Source: an uncultured Planctomycetaceae bacterium
GTDB lineage: Bacteria; Planctomycetota; Planctomycetia; Planctomycetales; Planctomycetaceae
Direction: 5' to 3'
NCBI GenBank assembly: GCA_903823545.1
Contig: CAIJTL010000325.1
Coordinates: 1 to 11,664, forward strand
DNA length: 11,664 bases
Below, one piece after another: positions 58-11,664 of this stretch (its first letter is position 1; every line of letters begins with the position of its first letter). The translations under genes and the position numbers were made by a program. The notes beneath the pieces are model-generated. The model had not been told where the DNA came from and did no database searches. It was given only the letters and a program-made list of their open reading frames with translations.

Positions 58-1020
58 ATGTCATTAGCAATGAGCATCATCACCTTCATCGCCGGACTGC
101 TCGTCCTGACGGGGGGTGCCCATTGTTTCGTTCAAGGAGCAGTGCGGCTGGCGGAACGGCTGCGCGTGAGCCGTTTCCTAGTGGGGTTGACGGTCGTGGC
201 CTTGGGAACGTCCACGCCCGAGTTGTTTTTCGACCTGACGGCGGTGACCCACGACGCCGTGGATCTGGCGTTCGGTGATCTGGTGGGGAGCAACATCGCC
301 AACATCGGCCTGATCCTGGGCGTGGCCATGCTGGTCAGTCCGATCGAGGTGCATCTGCGTTTGATGCGTGTCGAGTTGCAATTCGTCCTGGCCATTTCGG
401 CGGGACTGTGGGCGCTGGCAGCCGATGGAGTCATTAGCCGACTGGATGGGTTCGTGCTGTGGATCGGGTTCGGCGGTTTTTTGGTGTATCTGACTCACGG
501 GGCGCGACAGGTCGCGCAGCAGGTCCGGGCGGAATCCGAGCGAACGGCATCGCCGAATTGGTCGGCGCTCCGCAGCCTCCTGGCTTTGGGAGTGGGTTTG
601 GTCGGTCTGTTTTTCGGCGCGCGGTTCATGGTCTCCGCCGCGACGGAGATCGCGCGCGACCTCGGCGTCAGCGAACTTTTGATCGGGTTGACCATCGTGG
701 CTATCGGCACCTCGTTGCCGGAATTCGCCACCTCGATCATGGCCGCGCTGCGCAACGAATTGGACATCACTGTCGGCAATGTGCTGGGAGCCAATCTGAT
801 CAACATCGCGCTCATCATGGGCAGCGTCGTCCAAGTCCGTCCGTTGCCCGTGCACCCTGAGTCCGTGGCGATCGACTTGCCGGTCATGCTCGGACTGGTC
901 CTGCTGTTGATGCTGCTGGTGGCTCGCCGCAGTTGGCTGACTCGCCGATCCGGCAGCCTGCTGGTCGGCGCGTACGTCGCCTACATCGCATTGAAGATCG
1001 TCAACGTTCCCGCCGCTTAA
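58..1020 (+). CDS. Calcium/sodium antiporter, CaCA (YrbG-like) family
   Basis: This 320-residue inner-membrane protein most likely exchanges Ca2+ for Na+ or H+. It shows the internal duplication of the CaCA superfamily. The alpha-1 repeat has GTSTPE at residues 50-55 and GDLVGSN at 73-79; the alpha-2 repeat has GTSLPE at 217-222 and GNVLGAN at 240-246. The acidic residues E55 and E222 are the expected cation ligands. About ten hydrophobic segments surround a polar loop at roughly 148-170, and the length is normal for bacterial members. Two features are slightly off consensus: alpha-1 has GD where GN is common, and alpha-2 has GAN instead of GSN. The start is uncertain, since ATG 58 and ATG 70 are in frame and neither has a strong Shine-Dalgarno. 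A DUF2934 gene follows after 23 bp, so the two are probably co-transcribed. The family call is secure; the transported ion is inferred. Confidence 0.93.
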   Translation: MSLAMSIITFIAGLLVLTGGAHCFVQGAVRLAERLRVSRFLVGLTVVALGTSTPELFFDLTAVTHDAVDLAFGDLVGSNIANIGLILGVAMLVSPIEVHLRLMRVELQFVLAISAGLWALAADGVISRLDGFVLWIGFGGFLVYLTHGARQVAQQVRAESERTASPNWSALRSLLALGVGLVGLFFGARFMVSAATEIARDLGVSELLIGLTIVAIGTSLPEFATSIMAALRNELDITVGNVLGANLINIALIMGSVVQVRPLPVHPESVAIDLPVMLGLVLLLMLLVARRSWLTRRSGSLLVGAYVAYIALKIVNVPAA

Positions 1021-1043
1021 CCAAATCTGAAAGGGACAATTCC

Positions 1044-1220
1044 ATGAGCGACTCTGATGTGACAGAACAAGCGATTCGAGATCTGGCCTATGAACTGTGG
1101 CAAAGAAATGGTTGCCCCAGAGGAGATGAAGACCATTTCTGGTACGAGGCGGAACGAGTGCTGAAGGCTGCGAAAGCACCGGCCGCCTCCGCGAGTTCGC
1201 AAAAGCCCAATGACGAATGA
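1044..1220 (+). CDS. DUF2934 small protein
   Basis: This encodes a 58-residue soluble protein with the DUF2934 pattern: a short helix IRDLAYELW at residues 11-19, a glycine/charged turn (NGCPRGDEDHFW, 22-33) and the closing helix YEAERVLKAA (34-43). DUF2934 proteins have no established biochemical function and are usually 50-100 residues long. The ATG at 1044 is preferred over an upstream extension because AAGGGA at 1031-1036 sits at proper Shine-Dalgarno distance and because the conserved segment begins about ten residues later. The tail (44-58) is Ala/Ser-rich and low complexity. It lies between the antiporter and a membrane protein in a tightly spaced same-strand run, so co-expression is likely. 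The domain assignment rests on motif recognition. Confidence 0.85.
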   Translation: MSDSDVTEQAIRDLAYELWQRNGCPRGDEDHFWYEAERVLKAAKAPAASASSQKPNDE

Positions 1221-1266
1221 CGAAGAGTTGTGCTGAGCGTCACCCTTCTCCGAGATTTGGAATCCC

Positions 1267-1986
1267 ATGTCCCCCAGAATTGCAGCTTACATTCGGTTTC
1301 TCCGCGAGCATTCACTGCTGGGGACCGCACTGTCTTGGGTGATGATCCTGGCCATGATCTGGGTCATTCCCGCTGCGCTGTGGCGCGGCGATTGGCCGCT
1401 GGCAATCATGGCGACAGTGGCTGTCGCGGTGGCTCTTCTCCCGGCCGTTCTGCAACACAATTACCGCATCGTGCTCCCCTGGTTACTGGTGTTCCTAGTG
1501 GTGCTGCAATTGCACCTGCATACGTTTTGGGGCGTGTGGCTGCGGTTCTACGACTCACACTGGTTTTGGGACAAACTGCTACACCTGAAGGGGACGATGC
1601 TGGTTTCTCTCGTCGGATTTCTGGCAGCGTATTCCGTTCATCTGTCTGGCAAGGCGCGCTTGACGGGACCGATCCTGGGTCTGTTCACCGTGGTCTTTGG
1701 AAACGCTCTGGGAGCATGGTGGGAAATTGTCGAATTTCTGGTGGACAAGACTCTCAAGAAGAACACGCAGTACGGACTCGACAACACAATGATCGACCTC
1801 ATCAACAATCTGTTGGGCAGCCTGATCGCGGCTGGGGTGGGTGGGGTGTATTTGAAAGTCACCACGCGCCAGGAACGACGACAACTGGCCGAACCGCTCG
1901 CCGCTGTCATGGGGCCGTTGTTGTCCGGCGAGATTTTCGACGAACAGGACGACGGCAACACTCAACCGGAGTGCGCGGAACCATGA
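1267..1986 (+). CDS. YjdF/DUF2238-like integral membrane protein
   Basis: This 239-residue membrane protein has roughly six hydrophobic segments between residues 15 and 197. It carries the conserved polar signature of the YjdF (DUF2238) family: WDKLLHLKGT at 101-110, with Asp and His inside a membrane segment, then GAWWEIVEFLVD at 149-160, then DNTMIDLINNLLGS at 172-185. The repeated Asp/Glu/His/Asn residues within membrane helices are typical of the family, whose function is unknown. The C-terminal 40 residues are hydrophilic and acidic (EIFDEQDD, 222-229) and probably cytoplasmic. The ATG at 1267 has only a weak purine-rich upstream sequence. It follows the DUF2934 gene by 46 bp and precedes USP-A by 103 bp. 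The family call is good; no physiological role can be read from the sequence. Confidence 0.78.
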   Translation: MSPRIAAYIRFLREHSLLGTALSWVMILAMIWVIPAALWRGDWPLAIMATVAVAVALLPAVLQHNYRIVLPWLLVFLVVLQLHLHTFWGVWLRFYDSHWFWDKLLHLKGTMLVSLVGFLAAYSVHLSGKARLTGPILGLFTVVFGNALGAWWEIVEFLVDKTLKKNTQYGLDNTMIDLINNLLGSLIAAGVGGVYLKVTTRQERRQLAEPLAAVMGPLLSGEIFDEQDDGNTQPECAEP

Positions 1987-1988
1987 AC

Positions 1989-1998
1989 CTCGCGCGAG
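1989..1998. promoter_or_regulatory. 10-bp perfect palindrome upstream of USP-A
   Basis: CTCGCGCGAG lies about 91 bp upstream of the USP-A start codon, immediately after the previous gene. The same 10-mer forms the core of a 16-bp palindrome at 7192-7207 ahead of a receiver gene. It could be an operator, but a GC-rich palindrome of this length may also occur by chance. Confidence 0.25.
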
Positions 1999-2089
1999 AA
2001 TTTCTGTTCCTGATGGGGCCTCCCTGTGGAGCAAGGCCGTGTGAGACGCCGTACAGATCAACATTCCTTTCACATTTTGGAGATTAATC

Positions 2090-3223
2090 ATGCGAACGCT
2101 GCAATCGATTCTGCTGGCCACCGATTTTCGACCACCGAGTAACGACGCCTTGAACGCGGCGGCAAAACTGGCGACGGCGTTCGGATCGGAAGTCTCCGTG
2201 TTGCATGTCTTGGAGCCTTTCACCAGCAGCCTGCACAATTCTCATCGGCGACAAATCAGTGAGATGCTCATGCGGCCTGAGTTGCAGCGCCTTACCGAAC
2301 AGCAAGTGACGGTGGCTCAGTCGAGCGTCAAGTCGGGCTCGCCCGCAAATACGATTGTCACTGTCGCGCAGGCGTGGGACGTCGAACTGATCGTCCTAGG
2401 GGCAGGAGAGTGGAAGCATCCCGAGGGATTTTGCATCGGTCCGATTGCCGAAGCGGTGGTCACCCATGCGCCGCAACCGGTGCTGGCGGTTCGGCCCGGC
2501 GACCCCCCAATGGGGTTCCAGAGAATCCTCTGCCCAGTGGATCAGTCGAGTACGTCGGCCCGTGGGCTGAAAAATGCGGTGCGGCTGGCGAAGGTCTTCG
2601 GCGGCGAAATCATCGTGCTCTCGGTCGTTCCCGAAGTGAGCTGGCTGACCGCTGCTGTGGAAACGGGCGAGTTCGTGGATGCCAAGGCGGAACACGCAAA
2701 CGAGTGGGTTCAGGAATTTGACCAGTTTCTGGAGGCCGTGGATTTTTCCGGCGTCCCCTGGAAACGCGAGGTGCGATACGGGGTGCCGCATGAACAAATC
2801 GTCTTAGCGGCAAAGGAGCACGGAGTTGGTCTGATCATAATGGGGGCTACGGGGCGTACGGGTCTGGTGCAAGTGCTGCTGGGCAGCACGACTCGGCGGC
2901 TGTTGCGGGGCCTGCCGTGTTCACTGCTGACGGTCAAACAGGAAGATGTGCTGGAGGAGTTGTTCGAGAGTGACGTGCGGATCATAGCATTAGACATCGC
3001 GGAAGCTCAGGCCCTTTTCAATGCTGGCACGTTCGTACCGGCCATCGACAAGTATCGGCAGGTCATCAGTCGTCATCCCTTCCACATCGCGGCGTTGGAG
3101 GGGCTGGTGTCGGCGAATGAAAAGATCGGTGAGACCGAGGAAGCCGATCGCTACCGCCGGCGTCTGGCAAGTTCGCTTCGTCTCGCCAACCCACACTTGG
3201 AGTCGTCGGAAGTGGCGTTTTAG
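2090..3223 (+). CDS. Tandem-domain universal stress protein with helical-repeat tail (USP-A)
   Basis: This 377-residue cytoplasmic protein has two UspA domains. Domain 1 (about 1-136) starts with SILLATDF and ends with QPVLAVRPG. Domain 2 (about 144-283) starts with RILCPVD and carries a perfect G-2x-G-9x-G-S nucleotide-binding motif (G252, G255, G265, S266), so it should bind ATP. In domain 1 the equivalent stretch is GAGEWKHPEGFCIGP (104-118), which breaks that consensus. Residues about 290-365 form a TPR-like helical hairpin (AQALFNAGTFVPAIDKY followed by ALEGLVSANEKIGETEEAD), an unusual addition to USPs. The ATG at 2090 has GGAG at 2079-2082, seven bases upstream. It is a clear paralogue of the gene at 5345-6529. 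USPs are typically induced by growth arrest or hypoxia; the partner of the helical tail is unknown. Confidence 0.93.
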   Translation: MRTLQSILLATDFRPPSNDALNAAAKLATAFGSEVSVLHVLEPFTSSLHNSHRRQISEMLMRPELQRLTEQQVTVAQSSVKSGSPANTIVTVAQAWDVELIVLGAGEWKHPEGFCIGPIAEAVVTHAPQPVLAVRPGDPPMGFQRILCPVDQSSTSARGLKNAVRLAKVFGGEIIVLSVVPEVSWLTAAVETGEFVDAKAEHANEWVQEFDQFLEAVDFSGVPWKREVRYGVPHEQIVLAAKEHGVGLIIMGATGRTGLVQVLLGSTTRRLLRGLPCSLLTVKQEDVLEELFESDVRIIALDIAEAQALFNAGTFVPAIDKYRQVISRHPFHIAALEGLVSANEKIGETEEADRYRRRLASSLRLANPHLESSEVAF

Positions 3224-3315
3224 TGATTGCGAGTATTGGAGGTTGCGCGGTGCAGCCTGGCGCTCGATACAGAAGCGGCCGACTCGCATCGCCAGACGAA
3301 TCACGAAGGTCAATC

Positions 3316-4428
3316 ATGAAATGGTCCTGGAAACTCGGTGAAGTTCGCGGCATCGGTGTTTACATGCATGCCACGTTTTTGATTTTGATCGGGTTTATCG
3401 TCCTGAGTCACTGGTCGGCGGGCGAGAGTTTAGGGAAAAGCCTGGAAGGGGTGGGCTTCATCCTCGCCCTGTTTGGCTGCGTGGTGCTGCACGAGTTCGG
3501 CCATGCGCTGATGGCAGCCCGGTACGGCATCAGAACACGGGACATCACCCTGTTGCCCATCGGTGGTGTGGCGCGCCTGGAACGCATGCCGGAGGAACCG
3601 CTTCAGGAGCTGTGGGTGGCCCTGGCCGGACCGGCCGTCAACATGGTCATCGCGGCGGCGCTGTTTGCCTGGCTCCACTTTACAGCCACGTTCGCGCCGC
3701 TGGAACAACTCAGTGTGACCAGCGGCCCGTTTCTCGAACGACTGATGGTCGTCAATGTCTCGTTGGTCGTCTTCAACATGCTCCCGGCGTTTCCCATGGA
3801 CGGCGGACGTGTGCTGCGGGCTTTGTTAGCGACGAGGCTCGAATACGCGCGCGCCACACAGATCGCCGCCGGCATCGGTCAGGCGATGGCCTTGCTGTTC
3901 GCCTTCTTGGGTTTCTTCGGAAATCCGTTCTTGTTGTTCATCGCGTTCTTCGTGTGGATCGGCGCGGCTCAGGAAGCCGGCATGGCGACCATGAAAGCCG
4001 CACTGGGAGGCATCCCCGTGAAGCGGGCGATGATGACCGATTTTCGTTCGCTGAAGCCGGGTGATTCCCTGCAACGAGCCATCGATCTGATCCTGGCGAC
4101 TCCGCAGCAGGACTTTCCGGTGCTGGAGGATTCGCGAGTCGTCGGCATTCTTCCCAGTCGCGATCTGCTGGTCGCGCTACAGCAGCGCGGGCCGGACGCG
4201 CTGGTGGGAGAGGTCATGCGTCGCGATTTCCTCGCGTTGAACGTCAACGAAATGTTGGATGCCGCCCTTGCTCGAATCCATGCCGCGGAAGGTTGCCTGA
4301 CAGCACCTGTGATTCATCGCGACGCACTGGTCGGGCTTCTGACCGCAGAGAATGTCGGTGAGTTCTTGCTCATTGTTTCCGCATTAGGGGAACGGCACCG
4401 AGATAATCACGCCAGGAGTTCCTCATGA
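3316..4428 (+). CDS. Site-2-type M50 zinc metalloprotease with CBS domains
   Basis: This 370-residue intramembrane protease is predicted to cleave membrane-embedded substrates. The zinc site is HEFGH at residues 59-63 (H59, H63, catalytic E60), and the third ligand lies in FNMLPAFPMDGGRVLRALL at 153-171 (D162). About six hydrophobic segments fill residues 15-220. Two CBS modules follow, at about 234-290 (VKRAMMTDF...) and 295-355 (VGEVMRRDF...), suggesting control by an adenosyl ligand such as AMP or ATP. The ATG at 3316 is chosen because GAAGG at 3305-3309 precedes it and the family N-terminus begins there; the upstream GTG at 3223 lacks a ribosome site. The stop overlaps the start of a mini-ORF as ATGA. 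M50-CBS proteins sit beside USPs in the mycobacterial DosR regulon (Rv2625c), and the same pairing is seen here. The substrate is unknown. Confidence 0.93.
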   Translation: MKWSWKLGEVRGIGVYMHATFLILIGFIVLSHWSAGESLGKSLEGVGFILALFGCVVLHEFGHALMAARYGIRTRDITLLPIGGVARLERMPEEPLQELWVALAGPAVNMVIAAALFAWLHFTATFAPLEQLSVTSGPFLERLMVVNVSLVVFNMLPAFPMDGGRVLRALLATRLEYARATQIAAGIGQAMALLFAFLGFFGNPFLLFIAFFVWIGAAQEAGMATMKAALGGIPVKRAMMTDFRSLKPGDSLQRAIDLILATPQQDFPVLEDSRVVGILPSRDLLVALQQRGPDALVGEVMRRDFLALNVNEMLDAALARIHAAEGCLTAPVIHRDALVGLLTAENVGEFLLIVSALGERHRDNHARSSS

Positions 4429-4490
4429 CGCAACAACGCACCGTCGCCGACGTGGCGTCGAAGATCGTGCTGCTGCCAAGCCCGGTTTAG
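4412..4490 (+). pseudogene. Relic of a glycogen phosphorylase 5' end (RBS plus 21-codon ORF)
   Basis: Positions 4412-4447 match 33 of 36 bases of 10520-10555, which is the ribosome site and first codons of the glgP gene at the right edge. The resulting ORF (ATG 4425, stop TAG 4488-4490) reads MTQQRTVADVASKIVLLPSPV in pieces: eight codons are near-identical to glgP, and alignment continues weakly in frame (10 of 21 residues identical overall). Homology then stops at a TAG codon. The simplest reading is that a second phosphorylase gene once lay here, or that its 5' end was copied here, and nearly all of it was lost. The mini-ORF could still be translated, since its ribosome site AGGAG is intact and it overlaps the M50 stop codon. 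It may therefore couple translation of the protease gene to the methyltransferase nine bases further on. Confidence 0.6.
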
Positions 4491-4499
4491 GAGTTGATG

Positions 4500-5297
4500 A
4501 TGTCATTGCAATTGCGAGTGCCTCCCACGAATCAACGAGTTCTTCCCGAAAGCGTTGAACACGACTTTGAACCGGGGTTGAGAGATCGGGAGCACACGCC
4601 ACCTCCGCGCGACGTCGCCGACGCCGGATGGGGCAACGGTTGGGAAACGGACTTCTCCGAATCGGTGCGGCGACTGTACGCGGGGTATCGTGGCGCGGTC
4701 TTGCCGACCTTGAGCGCTCTGTCGCTGCACGTCGCGCTAAGCGAACGCTGGTTTCAGCAGCGCGAGTTCGATCTGCGCGGCGCTCGGCGAATTTTGGACG
4801 TCGGTTGCGGTGCCGGGCAGTTGACTCAACACCTGTTGAAGCACGCCGATCGCGAGGCCACGATCATGGGTTGCGATCTGACTTGGGAAATGCTGCTCCG
4901 CGCTCGACGGCGTGTGCGTCACGACGCCGTGCAGTGGGTCGTCGGAAATCTGACTCATCTGCCGTTTGACGAGGCCAGCTTTGACTGCGTGACCTGCGGC
5001 TTCGTGTTGGAGCACTTGCCGGATGTCCGCCGCGGACTGCACGAATTGGCGCGCGTGCTGACGGATGGCGGACGATTGCTGCTGCTAACCACGGAAGACC
5101 ACTGGACCGGGCGCTGGACCGCTCGCGCGTGGAATTGCCGCGCGCTGAACCGCCAGGAGTTGCGGCGGCAGTGTCAGGAGGCGGGATTGGTCTGGAAACA
5201 AGACCTGTGGTTTTCCGAAGTCCATCGCTGGTTCGCGGTCGGTGGTATCTGTGTGTCGTTGGAGCGTGCGTCTCGATGCCATTCGGGCAATGGCTGA
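4500..5297 (+). CDS. Class I SAM-dependent methyltransferase (Methyltransf_11 type)
   Basis: This 265-residue soluble enzyme has a Rossmann-like methyltransferase core. Motif I is ILDVGCGAG at residues 98-106, the acidic ribose contact is in MGCDLTWEML (D126), and the post-core motif is FDCVTCGFVLEHLPDV at 161-176, followed by LTDGGRLLLLTTED (187-200). The substrate cannot be inferred; ubiquinone/menaquinone, lipid and small-molecule methylases share this fold. The first 50 residues are Pro/Arg/Asp-rich and probably disordered. Candidate starts are TTG 4494, ATG 4497 and ATG 4500; ATG 4500 has the best spacing (six bases) from AGGAG at 4489-4493, which overlaps the stop codon of the relic ORF. 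It lies between the protease and USP-B, 47 bp before the latter, and is probably co-transcribed with both. Confidence 0.88.
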   Translation: MSLQLRVPPTNQRVLPESVEHDFEPGLRDREHTPPPRDVADAGWGNGWETDFSESVRRLYAGYRGAVLPTLSALSLHVALSERWFQQREFDLRGARRILDVGCGAGQLTQHLLKHADREATIMGCDLTWEMLLRARRRVRHDAVQWVVGNLTHLPFDEASFDCVTCGFVLEHLPDVRRGLHELARVLTDGGRLLLLTTEDHWTGRWTARAWNCRALNRQELRRQCQEAGLVWKQDLWFSEVHRWFAVGGICVSLERASRCHSGNG

Positions 5298-5344
5298 GGG
5301 CGGCACAAAGTTCAGCGCGGCTTCGCCGCAGAAGGAGTTCGATC

Positions 5345-6529
5345 ATGAAACAATTACGTTCCCTTTTGTTCGCTGCGGACCTGCGGTCTCCGGGCCAGGA
5401 CATCGCCCAAGCGGTGAGCCGACTGGCACTCGCAACAGGCGCTCGCGTCACGTTGCTGCATGTGTTGGAGCCTCTCGCTCGATTGGCTTCCCCGCCCAGC
5501 ACGGGACTGGCGGGACTAGCCGGACTGGCGGGAGCCGTCAATCTGTCCCCCCGGTATGGTTGGCACGAAGTGACGGAGAGTCTGCGGCAAGTTTCGCAAA
5601 CGTCATTGGACGATTTGGCGTCGCGGCTCACATCGCAGGGGGTGGATCTGGCCGAACGCGCGATCGAAGTGGGGCCGGCGGCCGATACGATTCTGGCCAA
5701 GGCGAACGATATCGACGCGGACTTGATCCTGATTGGCGCGGGAGAGCGGGCACGCTTTGAACGATTCTCGATCGGACCCGTGGCCGTATCGGTTATCGAA
5801 CGGGCGTCGCAACCGGTGCTCGCTGTTCGGCCGGGGGAACCGCTTCTGAAGTTTGAACGGATTCTGTGCCCGGTGGACCACTCCGCTCCGGCAGCGCGCG
5901 GCCTGCGAAATGCCATTCGGTTGACGAAGATCTTCGGCGGGCAATTGGTGGTGCTGAGCGTGATTCCGGAGATCAGTTGGTTGTCAGCGGCCTTCGAGAC
6001 GGGACAACTACAGGAGGCTCAAGCGACGCACGCCAGTCAGTGGCGCGAAGAGCTGGAACAATTCCTGGCACCGATCGATTTTGCTGGCGTCTCAGTGACG
6101 CAGGACGTTCGCCACGGCGCTCCGCATCGGCAAATCGCGGCCGCCGCGAAGGACCATCTGGCCGACCTGATCGTGATGGGTGCCACAGGACGCACCGGGT
6201 TGGCGCGCGTGCTGGTCGGCAGTACCACGCGACGAATGCTGGAAGAGTTGCCCTGCTCGTTGTTGACCGTCAAGGAGGAGGAAGTGCTGGATGAAGTGTA
6301 CGGCAAGCTGTTGCGCGAACGGAACGCCTTGATCAGCGATGCGCGCGACCTGTGTGCCGCCGAGCTGTATGACCGGGCGCTTCCAAAGTTACGCCGCGTT
6401 CTGGAATTGACCCCGTTCCATCTGCCGACCGTTGAGGCGCTCGCCGAGACGCATGAAAAGCTCGGACACTCCGCGGACGCCGAAAAATTCCGGCTCCGCG
6501 CGGAACAACTCCGAGCACACGACGACTAA
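5345..6529 (+). CDS. Tandem-domain universal stress protein with helical-repeat tail (USP-B)
   Basis: This 394-residue paralogue of USP-A has the same three-part design. Domain 1 (about 1-163) opens with SLLFAADL and contains GAGERARFERFSIGP at 131-145, which again lacks the G-2x-G-9x-G(S/T) motif. Domain 2 (about 170-310) opens with RILCPVDHS and holds a perfect motif (G279, G282, G292, S293). The tail (about 325-390) is TPR-like, with AAELYDRALPKLRRVLEL followed by VEALAETHEKLGHSADAEK. A loop absent from USP-A contains GLAGLAGLAG at 54-63, encoded by a 9-bp tandem repeat. The ATG at 5345 is chosen because AAGGAG at 5332-5337 lies seven bases upstream; the longer reading from 5129 would overlap the methyltransferase. 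It is the last plus-strand gene before a non-coding scar. Confidence 0.93.
   Translation: MKQLRSLLFAADLRSPGQDIAQAVSRLALATGARVTLLHVLEPLARLASPPSTGLAGLAGLAGAVNLSPRYGWHEVTESLRQVSQTSLDDLASRLTSQGVDLAERAIEVGPAADTILAKANDIDADLILIGAGERARFERFSIGPVAVSVIERASQPVLAVRPGEPLLKFERILCPVDHSAPAARGLRNAIRLTKIFGGQLVVLSVIPEISWLSAAFETGQLQEAQATHASQWREELEQFLAPIDFAGVSVTQDVRHGAPHRQIAAAAKDHLADLIVMGATGRTGLARVLVGSTTRRMLEELPCSLLTVKEEEVLDEVYGKLLRERNALISDARDLCAAELYDRALPKLRRVLELTPFHLPTVEALAETHEKLGHSADAEKFRLRAEQLRAHDD
5505..5533. repeat. 9-bp tandem repeat (about three units) inside USP-B
   Basis: Three near-perfect copies of GGACTGGCG (the middle copy is GGACTAGCC) encode Gly-Leu-Ala three times. The repeat falls in the loop of domain 1 where USP-B is longer than USP-A, so slippage-driven expansion is plausible. 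Confidence 0.7.
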
Positions 6530-6561
6530 GGCGAGCGGCCATTGAGAAGTTATCACAATGA

Positions 6562-6630
6562 GCCGGAACGCGCTAATGTCCGGTTCGGAAGGTCAAACGA
6601 TATTCGAACCGGACGTTAGCACGTTGCGGT
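6562..6630. repeat. Long imperfect inverted repeat (REP/BIME-like, possible bidirectional terminator)
   Basis: The left arm 6567-6587 and right arm 6605-6625 are 21-base reverse complements with two differences, separated by a 17-base loop. After one G-G mismatch, pairing extends outward to 6562/6630. The left arm also contains its own small dyad (CCGGA at 6563-6567 with TCCGG at 6579-6583), as in paired REP units in opposite orientation. It sits 32 bp after the USP-B stop and upstream of the convergent receiver gene, so it may terminate transcription or stabilise mRNA ends. There is no T-run, so it is not a classic intrinsic terminator. Confidence 0.6.
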
Positions 6631-6723
6631 GACTCCGTTTCCGTGGGCTTGGGGCTGGGTGTTCGCGGGAAGTTTCGGACTGTTCTTCAGCACCGGGCCG
6701 ACCAACACGGTCCTGGCGAATGT
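6629..6723 (+). pseudogene. Fragment resembling an MFS transporter membrane segment
   Basis: Read in frame from 6629, about 31 residues form a hydrophobic segment WAWGWVFAGSFGLFF followed by STGPTNTVLANV. This resembles the late transmembrane helix of spinster-type MFS transporters, which carry a TGP-(S/A/T)-N-x-x-(L/V)-x-N-V-like signature. The similarity ends abruptly near 6723, where the sequence becomes an antisense match to the BON-like gene. A stop codon lies just upstream of the fragment and there is no proper gene start, so this is at best a remnant. The match rests on remembered family motifs. Confidence 0.35.
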
Positions 6724-6763
6724 GAAGTCCCATGACGGCGTGTTGCATGAGTTGTTTGCCGCC
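6724..6763 (-). pseudogene. Remnant duplicate of the BON-like gene 3' end
   Basis: On the minus strand this stretch encodes GKQLMQHAVMG, which matches GKQLVQHAVMD of the BON-like protein at 7227-7604. At DNA level the plus-strand text around CATGACGGCGTGTTG (6730-6744) and TTGTTTGCC parallels 7276-7315. It lies immediately downstream of the receiver stop codon at 6774 and breaks off at the join with the MFS-like fragment. It appears to be a partial duplicate left by recombination, with no start or stop of its own. Confidence 0.5.
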
Positions 6764-6773
6764 GCCTTCGGAA

Positions 6774-7154
6774 TCAAAGGGAGCATTGACGCACAATCTT
6801 CTTCAGAGCCGACGCCAACTTGGGGATATCGAGTGGTTTGGGGATCATGCAGTTCATGCCAGCTTGCAGGCATTCAGCGGCGCGTGGGTCGTGCGGTTCG
6901 CCGGTCATGAGAACCCCTGTGGTTTGCGGAGACAGGCCGCGAAGCTGGCGGAACAGGGCTAGTCCATCCATTCCCGGCATCATCAAGTCCAGCAAGGCGA
7001 TGTCGAAACGGTCGTGCCGCACTTTCTCCAAGGCCGCAGGTCCGTTGGGGGCGGTCTCCACGCGGTAGCCCAGATCCGAAAAGATGTCGGACAGATTCGA
7101 GCAAGTGTCTGTGTCATCATCGACAACCAACATGGAACTTTGAGTGGAACTCAT
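6774..7154 (-). CDS. Single-domain response regulator (CheY-like receiver)
   Basis: This 126-residue protein is a stand-alone receiver with a complete active site: acidic pocket D12-D14 in LVVDDD, phosphoacceptor D56 in LLDLMMPGMDG, T84 in VLMTGEP and K106 in IPKP. There is no output domain, so it probably passes a phosphate onward, acts by protein contact, or serves as a phosphate sink. The ATG at 7154 is favoured over the longer reading from 7226 because AAGGA lies seven bases upstream and the extra 24 residues do not look like receiver sequence. It is 72 bp downstream of the BON-like gene on the same strand. The nearest histidine kinase is encoded at 8437-9654 on the other strand and is a candidate partner. 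Confidence 0.92.
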   Translation of the reverse strand: MSSTQSSMLVVDDDTDTCSNLSDIFSDLGYRVETAPNGPAALEKVRHDRFDIALLDLMMPGMDGLALFRQLRGLSPQTTGVLMTGEPHDPRAAECLQAGMNCMIPKPLDIPKLASALKKIVRQCSL

Positions 7155-7173
7155 GGCTCTGTCCTTTTTGGAG

Positions 7174-7216
7174 CGGTAACTTTCCGTAGCCGCACTCGCG
7201 CGAGTGCTCGATCGAG
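7174..7216. promoter_or_regulatory. Cluster of palindromes upstream of the receiver gene
   Basis: The 72-bp gap between the BON-like gene and the receiver contains a perfect 16-bp palindrome, GCACTCGCGCGAGTGC at 7192-7207. Directly beside it is a 10-bp palindrome CTCGATCGAG at 7207-7216, and an imperfect dyad CGGTAACTTTCCG lies at 7174-7186. These lie 20-62 bp upstream of the receiver start and could be an operator or an mRNA-processing hairpin. No clear -35/-10 pair is evident. Confidence 0.4.
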
Positions 7217-7226
7217 CGAATGACAT

Positions 7227-7604
7227 TTACCCCACGGCGATGTTGTTGGCCAGAATTGGTAAGTCGGCTAAGTCCATGACGGCATGTTGAACCAATTGTT
7301 TGCCGTAATAGGTTCTGGTTCGGCCTTCCAGGATCAGGCCGCCATCCTGATAGCGAATGCGAAACTGCGCCAAGCGTCGAGTCAACTGTCGCTGAATCAG
7401 CGTTTCCAGTTGGACCAAGCGGCCGGTGTGTTCTCCGGCCGATGCGGTTGGCTCGCGGGGCGTGAACGAAACGGCGGCGGCACGCGTGCATGGCGGCTGG
7501 CCGTGATTCGTTGGGCGGTCAAGCACGGCGGTGTCCCGATTCCACCCGGTCGTGTCGTCAGCAATTTGATCGTGAAGCGGTTCAGCGGTCGCAACTGAGA
7601 GCAT
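7227..7604 (-). CDS. BON-like domain protein
   Basis: This 125-residue protein has a low-complexity N-terminal half (about 1-65) and a C-terminal BON-like region (about 68-125). The latter runs TLIQRQLTRRLAQFRIRYQDGG, then LILEGRTRTYYGKQLVQHAV and finally ILANNIAVG. The strand-helix pattern with the central LxGR...YY.KQL motif resembles BON-domain proteins, which bind membranes or ligands and are often stress related; the exact ligand is unknown. The ATG at 7604 is chosen because TGAGG lies six bases upstream, whereas the ATG at 7640 has no spaced ribosome site. It lies between two receiver genes on the same strand. A decayed partial copy of its 3' end is found at about 6724-6763. Confidence 0.65.
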   Translation of the reverse strand: MLSVATAEPLHDQIADDTTGWNRDTAVLDRPTNHGQPPCTRAAAVSFTPREPTASAGEHTGRLVQLETLIQRQLTRRLAQFRIRYQDGGLILEGRTRTYYGKQLVQHAVMDLADLPILANNIAVG

Positions 7605-7669
7605 GAGAAACCTCACGGTAGGCGCGACTTTCCCAACCATCCCTCGCTGGGAAGTTCACAACACTTTGT

Positions 7670-7691
7670 CGCCAGGCGGTCCTGCCTGGCG
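7670..7691 (-). terminator. 8-bp GC-rich hairpin after the atypical receiver gene
   Basis: CGCCAGGC (7670-7677) and GCCTGGCG (7684-7691) form a perfect 8-bp stem with a 6-base loop, 13 bp past the stop of the minus-strand gene ending at 7704. No T-run follows on the minus strand, so it could be a weak terminator or an mRNA-end stabiliser. Confidence 0.45.
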
Positions 7692-7703
7692 TGGAGAACG
7701 GGC

Positions 7704-8144
7704 TTATCGAGCACTTGCAGTACCCGCGAATTCGTGGCGATGGTGAGTTGGCGTTTGCCAGAGGTCGGTGCAATCTTCCGATTCGACGGCACGAATGCAG
7801 TCCAACAGGTGACTCATCAGGAACGGTTTGCGGAGGTAACGAAATACCAGCGACTGCTGGCGGAGTTCGGCGACGTTCTCTTCGGCCGTGCAGCCGACCA
7901 GGATGACGCTGGGAATCCGCTGCCGATGGGGTTCTTCGCGCAGGCACTCCACCAAGCCATCAGCCCCGCCCCACAGCAAGTCCACCGAGGCAACAAGCAC
8001 GCTGGGGGATTCGCAGCGCACGAGCGACAGGCACTCGATTCCTCCGGACGCGGTGAGAGTTCTATACCCGTGCCTGGTCAAATACCTTTGGTAGAGTTCC
8101 GCCAACTCGTCGTCTTCATCGGCAATCAGAACGGTCGTGGTCAT
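7704..8144 (-). CDS. Atypical single-domain response regulator
   Basis: This 146-residue receiver-like protein keeps the acidic pocket (D9, E10, D11 in LIADEDD), a phosphoacceptor candidate D55 in SVDLLWGGADGL, and K106 in LRKPF. It departs from consensus in two ways: the usual Pro-Gly after the acceptor loop is Gly-Gly, and the conserved Thr/Ser that signals phosphorylation appears to be replaced by V83 or G84 in SVILVGCTA. Its signalling may therefore be altered. A tail of about 25 residues rich in His/Thr follows the receiver fold. The ATG at 8144 is supported by AGGA eight bases upstream; the longer reading from 8339 adds 65 residues with no receiver character. It is divergent from the histidine kinase gene across 292 bp. 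Confidence 0.85.
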   Translation of the reverse strand: MTTTVLIADEDDELAELYQRYLTRHGYRTLTASGGIECLSLVRCESPSVLVASVDLLWGGADGLVECLREEPHRQRIPSVILVGCTAEENVAELRQQSLVFRYLRKPFLMSHLLDCIRAVESEDCTDLWQTPTHHRHEFAGTASAR

Positions 8145-8436
8145 GGGGTTGTTCCTAGGTGGTGAAATTCCTTGTGGAGCAGCCGAATTCCCCTGACTGT
8201 TCGGCGATGTGCGTCGGTCGTGAGAAAACCTCTTGACCACGAGCCGTTGGCCACCGGAACCTGCCCGCATCGCCCGCCTGAGCCATGGGAGCGGGAGTGT
8301 GACCGACTGTGAAGAATCGGGTATCGGAGCTTCTGCCATTCCAAGATGGCGGATTTCACCATGCCAATTCGACCGCCGCTCAATTAAGTTCGGTGGAAGT
8401 CAGTGAGAATTTCAGACAACAAAGGTCGGAGCCGTC
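8145..8436. promoter_or_regulatory. 292-bp divergent intergenic region
   Basis: This non-coding stretch separates the minus-strand receiver from the plus-strand kinase and must hold both promoters if each gene is separately expressed. I see no convincing sigma-70 -35/-10 pair. There is a short dyad CCCGC...GCGGG around 8272-8294 and a TTCGGTGGAAGT element at 8389-8400, which loosely resembles sequence upstream of glgP. Short readings that cross it are not credible genes. Confidence 0.45.
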
Positions 8437-9654
8437 ATGTCGTCCGCATCGGATGTTTCCAGCCGCGAGGGTGAGCCGCAGGAGTTGCTGGAAGCCCGCC
8501 GGCGCATTCTGGAATTGGAACGGCAGCTTGCGGAACGTCACGACGGGCCTGTCCGCCGGACTTTCGCGGACAAACGTGCGAAGGTGAACGAAGAGAGTCT
8601 GCGGGCGATCCTCAGCACGGCATTTAACGGGATCGTCACGATCGATCAGGCGGGCGTGATTGTCGGCGCGAATCCGGCGGCCGAGCGGATGTTCGGCTAC
8701 GCGCCGGATGAACTGCTGGGGCGGAACGTCAAGGTCTTGATGCCGCCGCCGTACTGCGACGAGCACGATGAATATCTTGAGCGGTTTCAGAGAACGCGCG
8801 AGCCGCGGATCATCGGCTCGGTTCGCGAGCTGCTCGGCAAGCGTCAGGACGGTTCGACGTTTCCGCTGGAGTTGGCAGTGAGTCAGGTGGATCACTTGGG
8901 ACTGTTCACGGGCATTTTGCAGGACATCTCCGAGCGCCGTCAGTTGCAACAGCAGGTGCTGGAAGTCGCCGTGGCCGAGCAGCGCCGGATTGGTCACGAA
9001 CTTCACGACGGCATTCAACAAGAACTCACCGGTCTGTCGCTGTTGGCCAGCACGTTGCTGGAAGTTTTGAAATCCGGACACGAAGAACCGAGTGCCGATG
9101 GGGATTGGCGATTCCGCGCCCGGAACTATTCGCAGTTGTGCGACCTGACGATGAAACTCTGCGAGCGGCTGGCGGACGCGAATCAACATGTTCATCAGTT
9201 GGCTCACGGCATACTGTCGGTCGAGATCGATCCTGAGGGGCTGCGCGCGGAACTGCAGGAGCTGGCCGCGTCACTGCACGGGCTTAACGGGTTGACCTGC
9301 CGATTCGTCTGCACCGAACCGGTGGCGATGGTGAACCCGAACACCGCCAAGCACCTGTATCGAATCGCTCAGGAATCCCTAAACAACGCGGTGCGTCACG
9401 CGCAAGCCACCGAGATCGAGATGTCACTGCGGCCACAAAACGGAGAGCTGACGCTGGAGGTGCGCGACAACGGCGTCGGCATTGGTTCGGTCGCCGCGCT
9501 GCATCGTCCGCGTATCGCGACCATGCAGGGGCTAGGGCTGCGCGCCATGAACTACCGCGCCGGAATCATCGGTGGCCGACTGACGGTCGAGCGTCTCGCC
9601 GGTGGGGGAACGTCAGTGAAATGTGTCGTGTCGTTCGAGGCCCGTGATCAATGA
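8437..9654 (+). CDS. PAS histidine kinase, FixL-like haem sensor with HisKA_3 core
   Basis: This 405-residue kinase has no membrane segment and is probably cytoplasmic. An N-terminal coiled coil (about 15-35) leads into a PAS domain (about 52-165). The PAS matches FixL-type haem-PAS: H110 (proximal haem ligand position), R116 and R130 (the Arg that contacts bound O2, R220 in Bradyrhizobium FixL) fall at the right spacing, with IIGS and GKRQDGSTFP conserved. The dimerisation domain is HisKA_3, with phosphoacceptor H190 in HELHDG, followed by a HATPase with an N box near N317, DNGVGIG (344-350) and GLGLRAM. Classic FixL uses a different HisKA type, so this is a NarX/DosS-like core on a FixL-like sensor. 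GGAG at 8428-8431 supports ATG 8437. It overlaps the downstream regulator by ATGA. Confidence 0.92.
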   Translation: MSSASDVSSREGEPQELLEARRRILELERQLAERHDGPVRRTFADKRAKVNEESLRAILSTAFNGIVTIDQAGVIVGANPAAERMFGYAPDELLGRNVKVLMPPPYCDEHDEYLERFQRTREPRIIGSVRELLGKRQDGSTFPLELAVSQVDHLGLFTGILQDISERRQLQQQVLEVAVAEQRRIGHELHDGIQQELTGLSLLASTLLEVLKSGHEEPSADGDWRFRARNYSQLCDLTMKLCERLADANQHVHQLAHGILSVEIDPEGLRAELQELAASLHGLNGLTCRFVCTEPVAMVNPNTAKHLYRIAQESLNNAVRHAQATEIEMSLRPQNGELTLEVRDNGVGIGSVAALHRPRIATMQGLGLRAMNYRAGIIGGRLTVERLAGGGTSVKCVVSFEARDQ

Positions 9655-10304
9655 CCAAAGAACCGTCTCGAATTCTGATCGTGGATGATCACCCGCTCGT
9701 CAGGGAGGGCCTGCGGATGCGCCTGTCCCTGCAGGCGGAATGGCAGGTGTGTGGCGAAGCCGGCAGCGAAGAGGAGGCGCTGGCTCTGATCCCGAAGACG
9801 TTGCCGCAATTGGTGCTCGTCGATCTCAATTTGCAGTCTGGCCACGGCATCGACTTGATCAAGCGGATCAAGTCTTTGTATCCGCGGATGGCGATGTTGG
9901 TGTTTTCTGGCTTTGACGAATCCCTGTATGCCGAACGAGCCTTGCGGGCCGGCGCATTGGGTTATCTCAACAAACGGGCATCGCACGAGAAACTTGTTGA
10001 GGCTATTCATGCCGTGCTAAACGGCCAACGGTTCATCAGCTCGGCGCTGGCTCAGCGTCTGGTCCACCAAGCGCTGGGTGACACAGACCCGTCATCAGCC
10101 CCCACCAGCCGCCTGACCGACCGCGAGCTAGAAGTGTTCCGCTTGATTGGAACGGGCTTTGCGACGGGTGCGATTGCCGAGCGACTGTTTCTCAGCCCAC
10201 ACACGATCGACACGCATCGCGAGAACATCAAACGCAAGCTGAACCTCGGGAGCGGCGGCGAACTCACCCGCGCGGCCGTGCAATGGGTCTTGGAGAACGG
10301 CTGA
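9651..10304 (+). CDS. NarL/FixJ-family response regulator with LuxR-type HTH
   Basis: This 217-residue transcription factor is the evident partner of the kinase, since the two genes overlap by four bases (ATGA). The receiver (about 6-122) has D12-D13 in IVDDH, phosphoacceptor D58 in LVDLNL, S86 in VFSGF and K108 in LNKRAS. The C-terminal LuxR-type helix-turn-helix (about 154-213) begins LTDRELEVFRLIGTG and contains the recognition helix region LFLSPHTIDTHRENIKRKL. The length and architecture are standard. Its targets are not shown by the sequence, but the USP, protease and glgP genes around it, and dyads upstream of some of them, are the natural candidates. Confidence 0.95.
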   Translation: MTKEPSRILIVDDHPLVREGLRMRLSLQAEWQVCGEAGSEEEALALIPKTLPQLVLVDLNLQSGHGIDLIKRIKSLYPRMAMLVFSGFDESLYAERALRAGALGYLNKRASHEKLVEAIHAVLNGQRFISSALAQRLVHQALGDTDPSSAPTSRLTDRELEVFRLIGTGFATGAIAERLFLSPHTIDTHRENIKRKLNLGSGGELTRAAVQWVLENG

Positions 10305-10347
10305 GCATAGGCATCGGAGCGTGCGGAATCGTCCACATCTTGTCGCG

Positions 10348-10367
10348 GCGCGCGATCGGTGGCGCGC
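10348..10367. terminator. GC hairpin after the response regulator gene
   Basis: Two GCGCGC blocks (10348-10353 and 10362-10367) can form a 6-bp stem with an 8-base loop about 44 bp after the response regulator stop. No T-run follows. It may end or attenuate the kinase-regulator transcript, but the evidence is only the dyad. Confidence 0.3.
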
Positions 10368-10473
10368 GGATGCTTTACGGGGTGTTCGGAATCTGCATGG
10401 CGCGAGTGGCCGTTCAGAATAGTTCGCAGGGGCCACATTTCGGAAACAAGGACAGAATGGTGAGCGTTCGGAT

Positions 10474-10491
10474 CGAAGTCACACGACTTCG
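10474..10491. promoter_or_regulatory. Candidate operator dyad upstream of glgP
   Basis: CGAAGTC (10474-10480) and GACTTCG (10485-10491) form a perfect 7-bp inverted repeat with a 4-base spacer, 41-58 bp upstream of the glgP start codon. The size suits a dimeric regulator such as the LuxR-type protein encoded just upstream. A second overlapping small dyad, ACTTC...GAAGT at 10486-10502, could form an RNA hairpin. The rest of the 228-bp gap shows no clear promoter hexamers. Confidence 0.45.
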
Positions 10492-10532
10492 GCTACGGAA
10501 GTGATTGCGACCCAGTTTTCAAGGAGTTCTTC

Positions 10533-11664
10533 ATGACGGAACAACGCACCGTCGCTTACTTCTCGATGGAGATCGGCCTCGAGCCGGGGATGCCGACCTA
10601 CAGCGGTGGCCTGGGTGTTCTGGCTGGCGACACGGTGCGTTCCGCTGCCGATCTGAATGTGCCGCTGGTGGCCGTCTCGTTGCTGCACCGCGCCGGCTAT
10701 TTCTATCAGCAACTGGACCGCAGCGGCTGGCAGACCGAACAGCCGGTGCGCTGGGTTGTCGAAGACTATCTGCGCGAGATGCCCGCACGAGCCGCAGTCA
10801 CAATCGAGGGGCGAGCCGTTCACATTCGCGCTTGGGAACGACACGTCCTGGGGTGCGGCGGAGCCACGGTGCCGGTCTATTTTCTCGACACCGATCTGCC
10901 GGAGAACTCTGAGTGGGACCGGACGCTGACGCACTTTCTCTATGGCGGGGATTCGCATTATCGACTGTGTCAGGAAGTCGTGCTCGGCATGGGGGGAGTC
11001 CGCCTGTTGGCGGGTCTTGGGTACGACCGTCTGGAACGTTTCCACATGAACGAAGGGCACGCCAGCTTCCTGGCTTTGGAACTTCTGGAAGACCATGCGC
11101 GGCAGATGGGGCGAGCGTCCCCCAATCGCGACGATGTCGAGACTGTCCGTCGGCTGTGCGTCTTCACCACGCACACGCCGGTTCCGGCGGGGCATGACCG
11201 GTTTCCTCTGGAGTTGGTGACCCGCGTGTTGGGAGATCGCGACGCCTTTCGCATGAAAGATGTCTTTTGCTGCGACGGCGTTCTGAACATGACCTACTTG
11301 GCTCTGAATCTGAGCCATTACGTCAACGGCGTCGCGAAGCGACACGGCGAGATTTCGCAGACCATGTTTGCTCGCCATGCGATTGATTCCATTACCAATG
11401 GCGTGCATGTCGCGACTTGGGCCTCGGCACCGTTCCGAGCGTTGTTCGAGCAGTACATCCCCGGTTGGCAGCACGACAACTTCAGCCTGCGGTACGCGCT
11501 GAACATCCCCAAATCCGAGGTGTGGCAGGCGCACATGGCGGCCAAGCACGCACTGATCCAGTATGTCAACCGCGAGGCGAATGCCGGCATGGATGTGGAT
11601 GTGCTCACGCTGGGATTTGCCCGCCGCGCCGCGACCTACAAACGAGCGGACCTGTTGTTCGACG
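10533..11664 (+). CDS. glgP: Glycogen/alpha-glucan phosphorylase, GT35 (partial, runs off window)
   Basis: The reading frame is open from ATG 10533 to the window edge, giving the first 377 residues of a larger enzyme. Alpha-glucan phosphorylases release glucose-1-phosphate from glycogen using pyridoxal phosphate. Visible family motifs are [12 protein letters not shown] (22-33), HMNEGHASF (171-179), [11 protein letters not shown] (212-222), ITNGVH (287-292) and [17 protein letters not shown] (360-376). This is the shorter bacterial/archaeal phosphorylase type without an N-terminal extension. The pyridoxal-phosphate lysine lies beyond the edge. AAGGAG at 10521-10526 sits six bases before the ATG. 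The 228-bp gap and operator-like dyad upstream suggest its own promoter. Its ribosome site and first codons are duplicated at 4412-4447, where the rest of a gene is missing. Confidence 0.95.

Follow-up and report, generated by a model that had tools for sequence, protein, structure and literature searches.

A palindrome-linked FixL-type sensor kinase and NarL-type regulator as a candidate low-oxygen switch in an uncultured Planctomycetaceae bacterium

Introduction

The right half of contig C325 from an uncultured Planctomycetaceae bacterium (genome G000; assembly of 7.23 Mb in 1707 contigs, 87.9% complete) probably encodes a self-regulated low-oxygen or redox switch. The contig, analyzed here over its whole length of 11,664 nucleotides and called the window below, carries a sensor kinase with a FixL-type PAS domain, a NarL-type response regulator and, divergent from them, a unit of two lone receivers and a BON-like protein in the order REC2-BON-REC1. 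Between REC2 and the kinase lies the palindrome CATGGYGGAWTCCRCCATG, centered 83 bp 5′ of the kinase start. Comparison with related genomes suggests that kinase, regulator and operator recur together as a regulatory unit, which in relatives is linked to stress and energy genes. Planctomycetes live across oxygen gradients, but little is known of how they perceive a loss of oxygen and live through it.

Results

Spaced-word enumeration in 112 upstream regions, compared with 663 control upstream regions, yielded palindromic words that assemble to CATGGYGGAWTCCRCCATG, with p-values that are not independent because divergent genes share upstream sequence. With up to three mismatches, the palindrome occurred at 23 sites in 15 of 54 loci (881 kb) and at none in 40 controls; looser matching gave 39 sites versus 2 (up to four mismatches) and 92 versus 42 (up to five). 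A position weight matrix (PWM) whose seeds were taken from these same loci found 46 sites of at least 16 bits, and 0 in controls. When the matrix was trained on one family and applied to another at 18 bits, that of family f5 found 11 sites in 10 of 23 f1 loci and that of f1 found 28 sites in 10 of 12 f5 loci, against 0 and 0 in controls and 0 and 1 in shuffled test sequence, in a test that was not fully blind, its seeds having been chosen with the consensus from the pooled set. In 19 loci, a site of at least 14 bits was located within -150 to 700 bp upstream of the called kinase start. The 17-bp core, with at most one mismatch, was found in all 12 of 12 relatives (71 strand-wise matches versus 3 of the reversed pattern), and the window site is its only zero-mismatch match in its own genome.

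The kinase, a universal stress protein (USP1), an M50 peptidase with CBS stretches (M50-CBS) and the phosphorylase of the window were searched for in 59 genomes, its own included, and the kinase in 297 genomes of the class. Kinase matches were obtained in 36 of the 59 genomes at 1e-20 and in 44 of the 297 at 1e-58; among the 59, the phosphorylase was matched in 52 (1e-60), M50-CBS in 21 (1e-30) and USP1 in 6 (1e-40). Named kinase homologs are mostly from Planctomycetaceae, Pirellulaceae or Planctomycetia, with a few from Verrucomicrobiota, Kaiserbacteria and Methylococcales, and Bremerella volcania (G122) carries a related kinase. We compared 52 kinase neighborhoods with 40 control windows. 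The 52 were the window, 48 others of 55 class-wide places (six of the last seven ranks were left out) and L060, L062 and L066 from the 59-genome kinase search; several were shortened by contig ends, and the near-identical L113 and L115 were counted twice. Controls came from seven genomes with long contigs, and one of the 40 random positions, which hit a kinase locus, was replaced by a hand-chosen one. Family profiles were built from proteins of the window, L050, L059, L066, L085 and L086, with a second round seeded with matches from all loci, controls included, and counts use the 49 neighborhoods that were not sources (total length 796 kb, against 784 kb of controls).

BON genes were found in 20 of the 49 kinase neighborhoods, HSP20 in 11, cation-ATPase in 11 and USP in 8, each against 0 of 40 controls (Fisher p, kinship ignored: 7e-7, 8e-4, 8e-4 and 6e-3, respectively). 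Because these stress genes recur in kinase loci and in no control window, the neighborhood seen in the window is more than chance. Two-component partners were also frequent (regulator match 44 vs. 8, REC2 match 23 vs. 2). Counts for the other genes were 6 vs. 3 for ADH, 3 vs. 0 for PAC2, 2 vs. 0 each for CBS, phosphoketolase and acetate kinase, and 0 vs. 0 for glgP. Pfam searches of 12 genomes returned 46 HSP20 genes, with one within about 3 kb of a kinase match in five genomes (G012, G014, G033, G040 and G049), the kinase of G014 having no HisKA_3 match. On the kinase tree, loci with operator and stress genes were clustered (8 changes versus 14.9 when shuffled, 0 of 500 as low) and did not form one clade, which suggests that the operator or the neighborhood was frequently gained and lost. 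The window sits in a six-row set of this tree, where it alone has both.

The recurrent layout is an (HSP20/USP)-BON set divergent from kinase-regulator, with genes reading away from the kinase. In the Blastopirellula/Bremerella family the set is HSP20-BON (L063, L064, L116, L121-L123), and a CsrA gene adjoins the kinase promoter in L116 and L122; in the window's family it comprises USP, BON and often ATPase genes (L050, L108, L110, L113-L115). ATPase, phosphoketolase and acetate kinase genes follow kinase-regulator on the same strand in G261 and G176. Across relatives, the palindrome precedes kinase, HSP20, BON or ATPase genes. A cytochrome c'-like protein, possibly a partner that binds nitric oxide (NO), is encoded at L113:14050-14547 between the ATPase and phosphoketolase genes.

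The genome of B. volcania has 11 places with at most one mismatch, all outside called genes. The adjoining genes, which are candidate targets only, encode HSP20, BON (two loci with identical genes), a Cpn60-HATPase-receiver hybrid, kinases, a YflT-like protein beside an AcrB-type pump, a sugar or other MFS transporter, NfeD and PDZ proteins, a receiver protein, an ATP-synthase-like product and one unassigned pair. Seven of these places fall within some 82 kb of the chromosome (L217-L219 and L126; about 1.86-1.94 Mb), a stretch that includes both identical-BON loci and the hybrid, and two further sites in L219 (17.0 and 19.6 bits) are flanked by chaperonin and AdoMet synthetase genes. The G065 places adjoin a sulfatase gene, a 6-phosphogluconolactonase-like gene and genes without assigned family, and one lies between the regulator and an ADP-forming acetyl-CoA synthetase-like gene. 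Of the places examined at a distance from the kinase locus, all 8 in the f5 genomes G122 and G065 are outside called genes, against 2 of 10 in f1 relatives (G239, G150, G035, G002 and G208), where the other 8 are inside; one of the two intergenic f1 places precedes a USP gene (L222, G239). Because of this difference, sequence supports a putative dispersed regulon in f5, the Bremerella/Blastopirellula family, only; in the window's family, the predicted operator is essentially a feature of the kinase locus.

The f1 count is one of several observations that weigh against the proposed switch. Neither operator nor stress genes were found in 24 of the 52 kinase loci, and the PWM gave 1 site in 17 loci outside f1 and f5; loci of other phyla (L001-L011) returned weak matches only, the best at 14.7 bits. 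In the window's own genome, only the window site is convincing. The other 11 places, which differ from the core by one or two mismatches, resemble background, as nine are inside predicted genes, one is at the 3′ end of an open reading frame (ORF) and one at an ORF start. In the 12-genome set, the window and G035 were the only cases of a USP close to the best kinase match. A scan for a common dyad upstream of the USP, protease and glgP genes had been proposed from sequence alone. A shared palindrome does exist, at the kinase locus and before stress genes of relatives, but the PWM scan of the window found none before USP1, M50-CBS, USP2 or glgP, and a window-wide regulon including these genes was rejected for that reason.

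A lesser but still serious possibility is that chance alone placed the USP-M50-methyltransferase-USP operon next to the kinase-regulator-receiver unit, and that the two do not form one regulon. The left operon has no operator and is separated from the other unit by an inverted repeat. M50-CBS neighborhoods from 12 of the 21 matching genomes (own counted) contained one USP and one kinase-like match, the latter weak at 35 bits (L104), and M50-CBS was rejected as a conserved island gene; for the M50-CBS flags in L064 and L124, which were also discarded, the best label is CBS. Among the 52 kinase loci, none but the window and G033 have glgP, the latter as a fragment, and the glgP of G014 adjoins the kinase without HisKA_3 match. 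Speaking for a link, USPs are found near the kinase in G035, G233, G239, G157, G261 and G176, mostly of 315-379 residues (two-domain size), so that USP-kinase adjacency recurs in the family. The sequence-only reading had suggested a search for conserved co-occurrence of these families. Two planctomycete families, and single members of others, do have homologous kinase-regulator pairs beside genes for USP, BON, HSP20 or cation-ATPase, but the M50-CBS protease is not a conserved neighbor. Under the preferred reading of a switch in the right half, the USP-protease-methyltransferase-USP unit is an adjacent operon without operator, and sequence does not support its control by the switch.

Two other clusters were rejected as regulon members, with no operator at 10 bits in either. 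One (L086, G002 contig C12) has genes for a cation ATPase, glgP (92% identical to that of the window), phosphoketolase, acetate kinase and fumarase in a row, possibly a glycogen-to-acetate ATP route. The other (L085, G014 contig C196) combines a PAS kinase without HisKA_3 match with CBS, PCMT-erythromycin-esterase, HSP20, baeRF, PAC2 and phosphorylase genes, and also holds ribosome-hibernation/cold-shock genes; it would represent a second kind of stress island.

The PAS domain of the window kinase matched FixL crystal-structure sequences with an E-value of 8e-27 and E. coli DosP with about 2e-11, and no GAF domain was matched in this kinase. This agrees with the earlier reading of a PAS/FixL-type rather than GAF-type candidate heme sensor. 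The HATPase domain is also similar to DosT and DevS, and the kinase scored below the cut-off of the NCBIfam FixL equivalog NF041777 (110.8 versus 850 bits). FixL has a HisKA core, unlike the HisKA_3 of the window kinase. In an alignment of 52 kinases and two FixLs, the window kinase has His110, Arg116, Arg124 and Arg130 at FixL heme-pocket positions, the Arg124 position being Arg or His in the two FixLs. By the FixL residue numbers of the proximal His and distal Arg, His110 is the candidate proximal heme ligand and Arg130 the distal Arg, and His190 is the predicted phospho-acceptor. The proximal His is kept in 37 of the 52 kinases, the distal Arg in 47 and the phospho-acceptor His in 51. With a HisKA_3 and HATPase kinase adjoining a receiver-GerE regulator, the pair has the composition of a HisKA_3/NarL-type two-component system; among solved structures, the regulator is about equally near NarL (101 bits), VraR (93) and DevR (90). 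Judging from the heme-ligand residues, oxygen sensing by the kinase is probable.

It is unlikely that the kinase instead senses a non-O2 signal (NO, carbon monoxide, redox or quinone state) or has lost its heme, with the island answering general stress or energy starvation, although part of the data would fit. The ligand position varies across the kinase family: it is not His in 15 of the 52 aligned kinases (one being a gap from a split ORF, L114), and operator loci are among them (L060, L061, L114, L125 and L139). Furthermore, BON, HSP20, CsrA, baeRF and sulfatase neighbors are not oxygen-specific. However, the window kinase keeps the FixL positions, and the phosphoketolase-acetate kinase genes and an ATP-grasp acetyl-CoA synthetase-like gene after some homologs fit anaerobic ATP supply.

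In G305 (L129:3619-4305), a BON-like domain is fused to an atypical REC2-type receiver, and this single ORF is matched by both the window BON protein (41% over 75 residues) and REC2 (35% over 118). Pfam BON matches 10 of 11 members of the BON alignment, the window ORF being the exception, and we call it BON-like because the L129 fusion matches both window proteins. Seven aligned REC2 proteins have D, E or N in the acceptor column and one invariant W; the variable acceptor suggests that some may be pseudo-receivers.

Discussion

In the mechanism that we propose, the FixL-type PAS domain would bind heme and loss of O2 would alter autokinase activity at His190. The NarL-type regulator, whose gene overlaps that of the kinase, would take the phosphate and bind the palindrome, and one divergent promoter would drive REC2-BON-REC1 leftward and kinase-regulator, perhaps with glgP, rightward. 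The lone receivers could be phosphate sinks or modulators. The output would be survival under limited respiration, joined in some species by substrate-level energy conservation; survival is suggested because the operator of relatives precedes HSP20, BON and cation-ATPase genes. In its own genome, the predicted direct target supported by sequence is the switch's own divergent promoter.

The mycobacterial DosR regulon contains Rv2623 (a USP) and Rv2625c (an M50-CBS protease); the heme sensor of DosS/DosT is a GAF domain, and the DosR box is GGGACTTNNGNCCCT. A Dos-like parallel had been proposed for the window and stands in part, since USP genes in the window, and USP or HSP20 genes in relatives, are found beside a HisKA_3 kinase and NarL-type regulator. 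The DosR box, in contrast, was rejected, with 9 window matches at up to three mismatches versus 8.9 expected. By analogy, the switch would work like the Dos, lxa or FixLJ-FixK2 systems. By the features tested it is not a DosR member, because its sensor is PAS/FixL-type and not GAF as in DosS/DosT and OsdKR, no DosR box rises above chance, and its regulator is no nearer DosR than NarL, its closest solved structure being NarL and not DevR. DosS/DosT-DosR (DevR) of mycobacteria and OsdKR of Streptomyces resemble the window in pairing a kinase with a NarL-family regulator, in USP and heat-shock genes that lie near the system or under its control, and in an autoregulatory palindrome, which is AGGGCCGATCGGCCCT for OsdR and CATGGYGGAWTCCRCCATG here (PMC5069765).

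The window would not be the first non-actinobacterial case, as the Burkholderia cenocepacia lxa locus and the Bradyrhizobium microoxia set are already in print. The lxa locus has six USPs, a heat-shock protein and a BON protein and is likened to DosR by its authors (PMC6127331), and microoxia-induced proteins of Bradyrhizobium include USPs, a CBS protein, phosphoketolase and a host-attachment protein (PMC6515984). The window, likewise non-actinobacterial, has USP and BON-like genes, with HSP20 in relatives only; a CRP-family regulator is proposed for lxa, whereas the window has a cis-linked kinase-regulator pair and its own palindrome (PMC6127331). FixLJ-FixK2 shares the FixL heme PAS, but there FixL acts via FixJ and FixK2, whereas no FixK step is seen with the HisKA_3 kinase of the window (PMC6515984). 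NmpRSTU of Myxococcus xanthus is similar in its heme-based sensor kinase, receiver-only protein, CBS and USP targets and hypoxia, and differs in its protoglobin sensor, NtrC-type regulator and phosphorelay (PMC11841059). Many of the families discussed here also occur in the lxa locus and the Bradyrhizobium set, and an ordinary Proteobacteria low-oxygen stress set under FNR/FixK/Anr control, taken over whole, could be imagined. We find this quite improbable: the regulator is NarL-type with its own palindrome, and no FNR-type box lies between window genes. This candidate was rejected, as the six matches with two mismatches (3.2 expected) all fall within the genes for the exchanger, the protease or USP2.

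In open-licence literature without most subscription journals, no planctomycete counterpart is described in titles or abstract openings among the matches listed, and no paper pairs Planctomycetes with DosR. Leaning slightly to the doubtful side of an even judgment, we suggest that a planctomycete group may run an undescribed, operator-defined low-oxygen survival system whose assembly was independent of DosR and FixK. Its FixL-PAS/HisKA_3 kinase and NarL-type regulator, together with a BON-atypical-receiver accessory pair and the palindrome, would drive chaperone, USP, Ca-ATPase and acetate-forming energy genes, in dispersed form in Bremerella and relatives and in local, mainly autoregulatory form in the window's family. 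With a kinase, a regulator and a 19-bp operator defined in species that can be cultured (Bremerella volcania, Blastopirellula), the question is open to direct tests. If true, this would be a clear case of convergent regulon assembly, in which a largely similar USP/HSP20/BON set is reached by a further route distinct from both DosR and FixK/FNR.

Gene Content of the Window

The genes named by the sequence-only reading (double USPs, M50-CBS, PAS/HisKA_3 kinase, LuxR-type, here NarL-type, regulator, two lone receivers and a truncated phosphorylase) are all present (Table 1). It had not listed the BON-like and methyltransferase genes, nor, outside the stretch it covered, a Na/Ca exchanger, a DUF2934 ORF and a membrane protein.

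Table 1. Features of the 11,664-nucleotide window.
Feature	Position	Strand	Remarks
USP1	2090-3223	+	Two Usp domains (PF00582, two stretches) and an extra C-terminal tail
M50 peptidase with two CBS stretches (M50-CBS)	3316-4428	+	
Class I S-adenosylmethionine (SAM)-dependent methyltransferase	4497-5297	+	
USP2	5345-6529	+	PF00582, two stretches; USP1 paralog, 45% identity
Inverted repeat, 25-nt arms, 88%	6563-6629		Between convergent USP2 and REC1 units
REC1, canonical lone receiver	6774-7154	-	
BON-like protein	7227-7640	-	No Pfam BON call on the window ORF itself
REC2, atypical lone receiver	7704-8144	-	Divergent from kinase; relatives at equivalent position
Palindromic operator (predicted) GATGGCGGATTTCACCATG	8345-8363	.	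Dyad enumeration, PWM score 26.0; between divergent REC2 and kinase genes
Sensor kinase: FixL-type PAS, HisKA_3, HATPase	8437-9654	+	
NarL-family response regulator: receiver, GerE helix-turn-helix	9651-10304	+	Overlaps kinase stop
Alpha-glucan (glycogen) phosphorylase, glgP, TIGR02094	10533-11664	+	Cut by contig end

The closely spaced plus-strand genes at 58-6529 could be one operon. The minus-strand genes (6774-8144) diverge from kinase, regulator and glgP and are set apart from these plus-strand genes by the inverted repeat, which is perhaps a bidirectional terminator; a terminator scan of the window did not include it among its calls. A sigma-70 promoter scan of the window gave 1 match versus 2.2 expected.

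Two short repeats were also observed. The ribosome-binding site and first codons of glgP (10522-10575) are repeated at 4414-4467 (54 nt, 81%), immediately after the M50-CBS gene. A short ORF comes next, and the repeat may be a relic of a phosphorylase start or a misplaced copy of one. Similarly, a 32-bp piece of the BON-like gene (7274-7305) is repeated beyond REC1 at 6730-6761 (84%), perhaps a decayed second BON-like copy.

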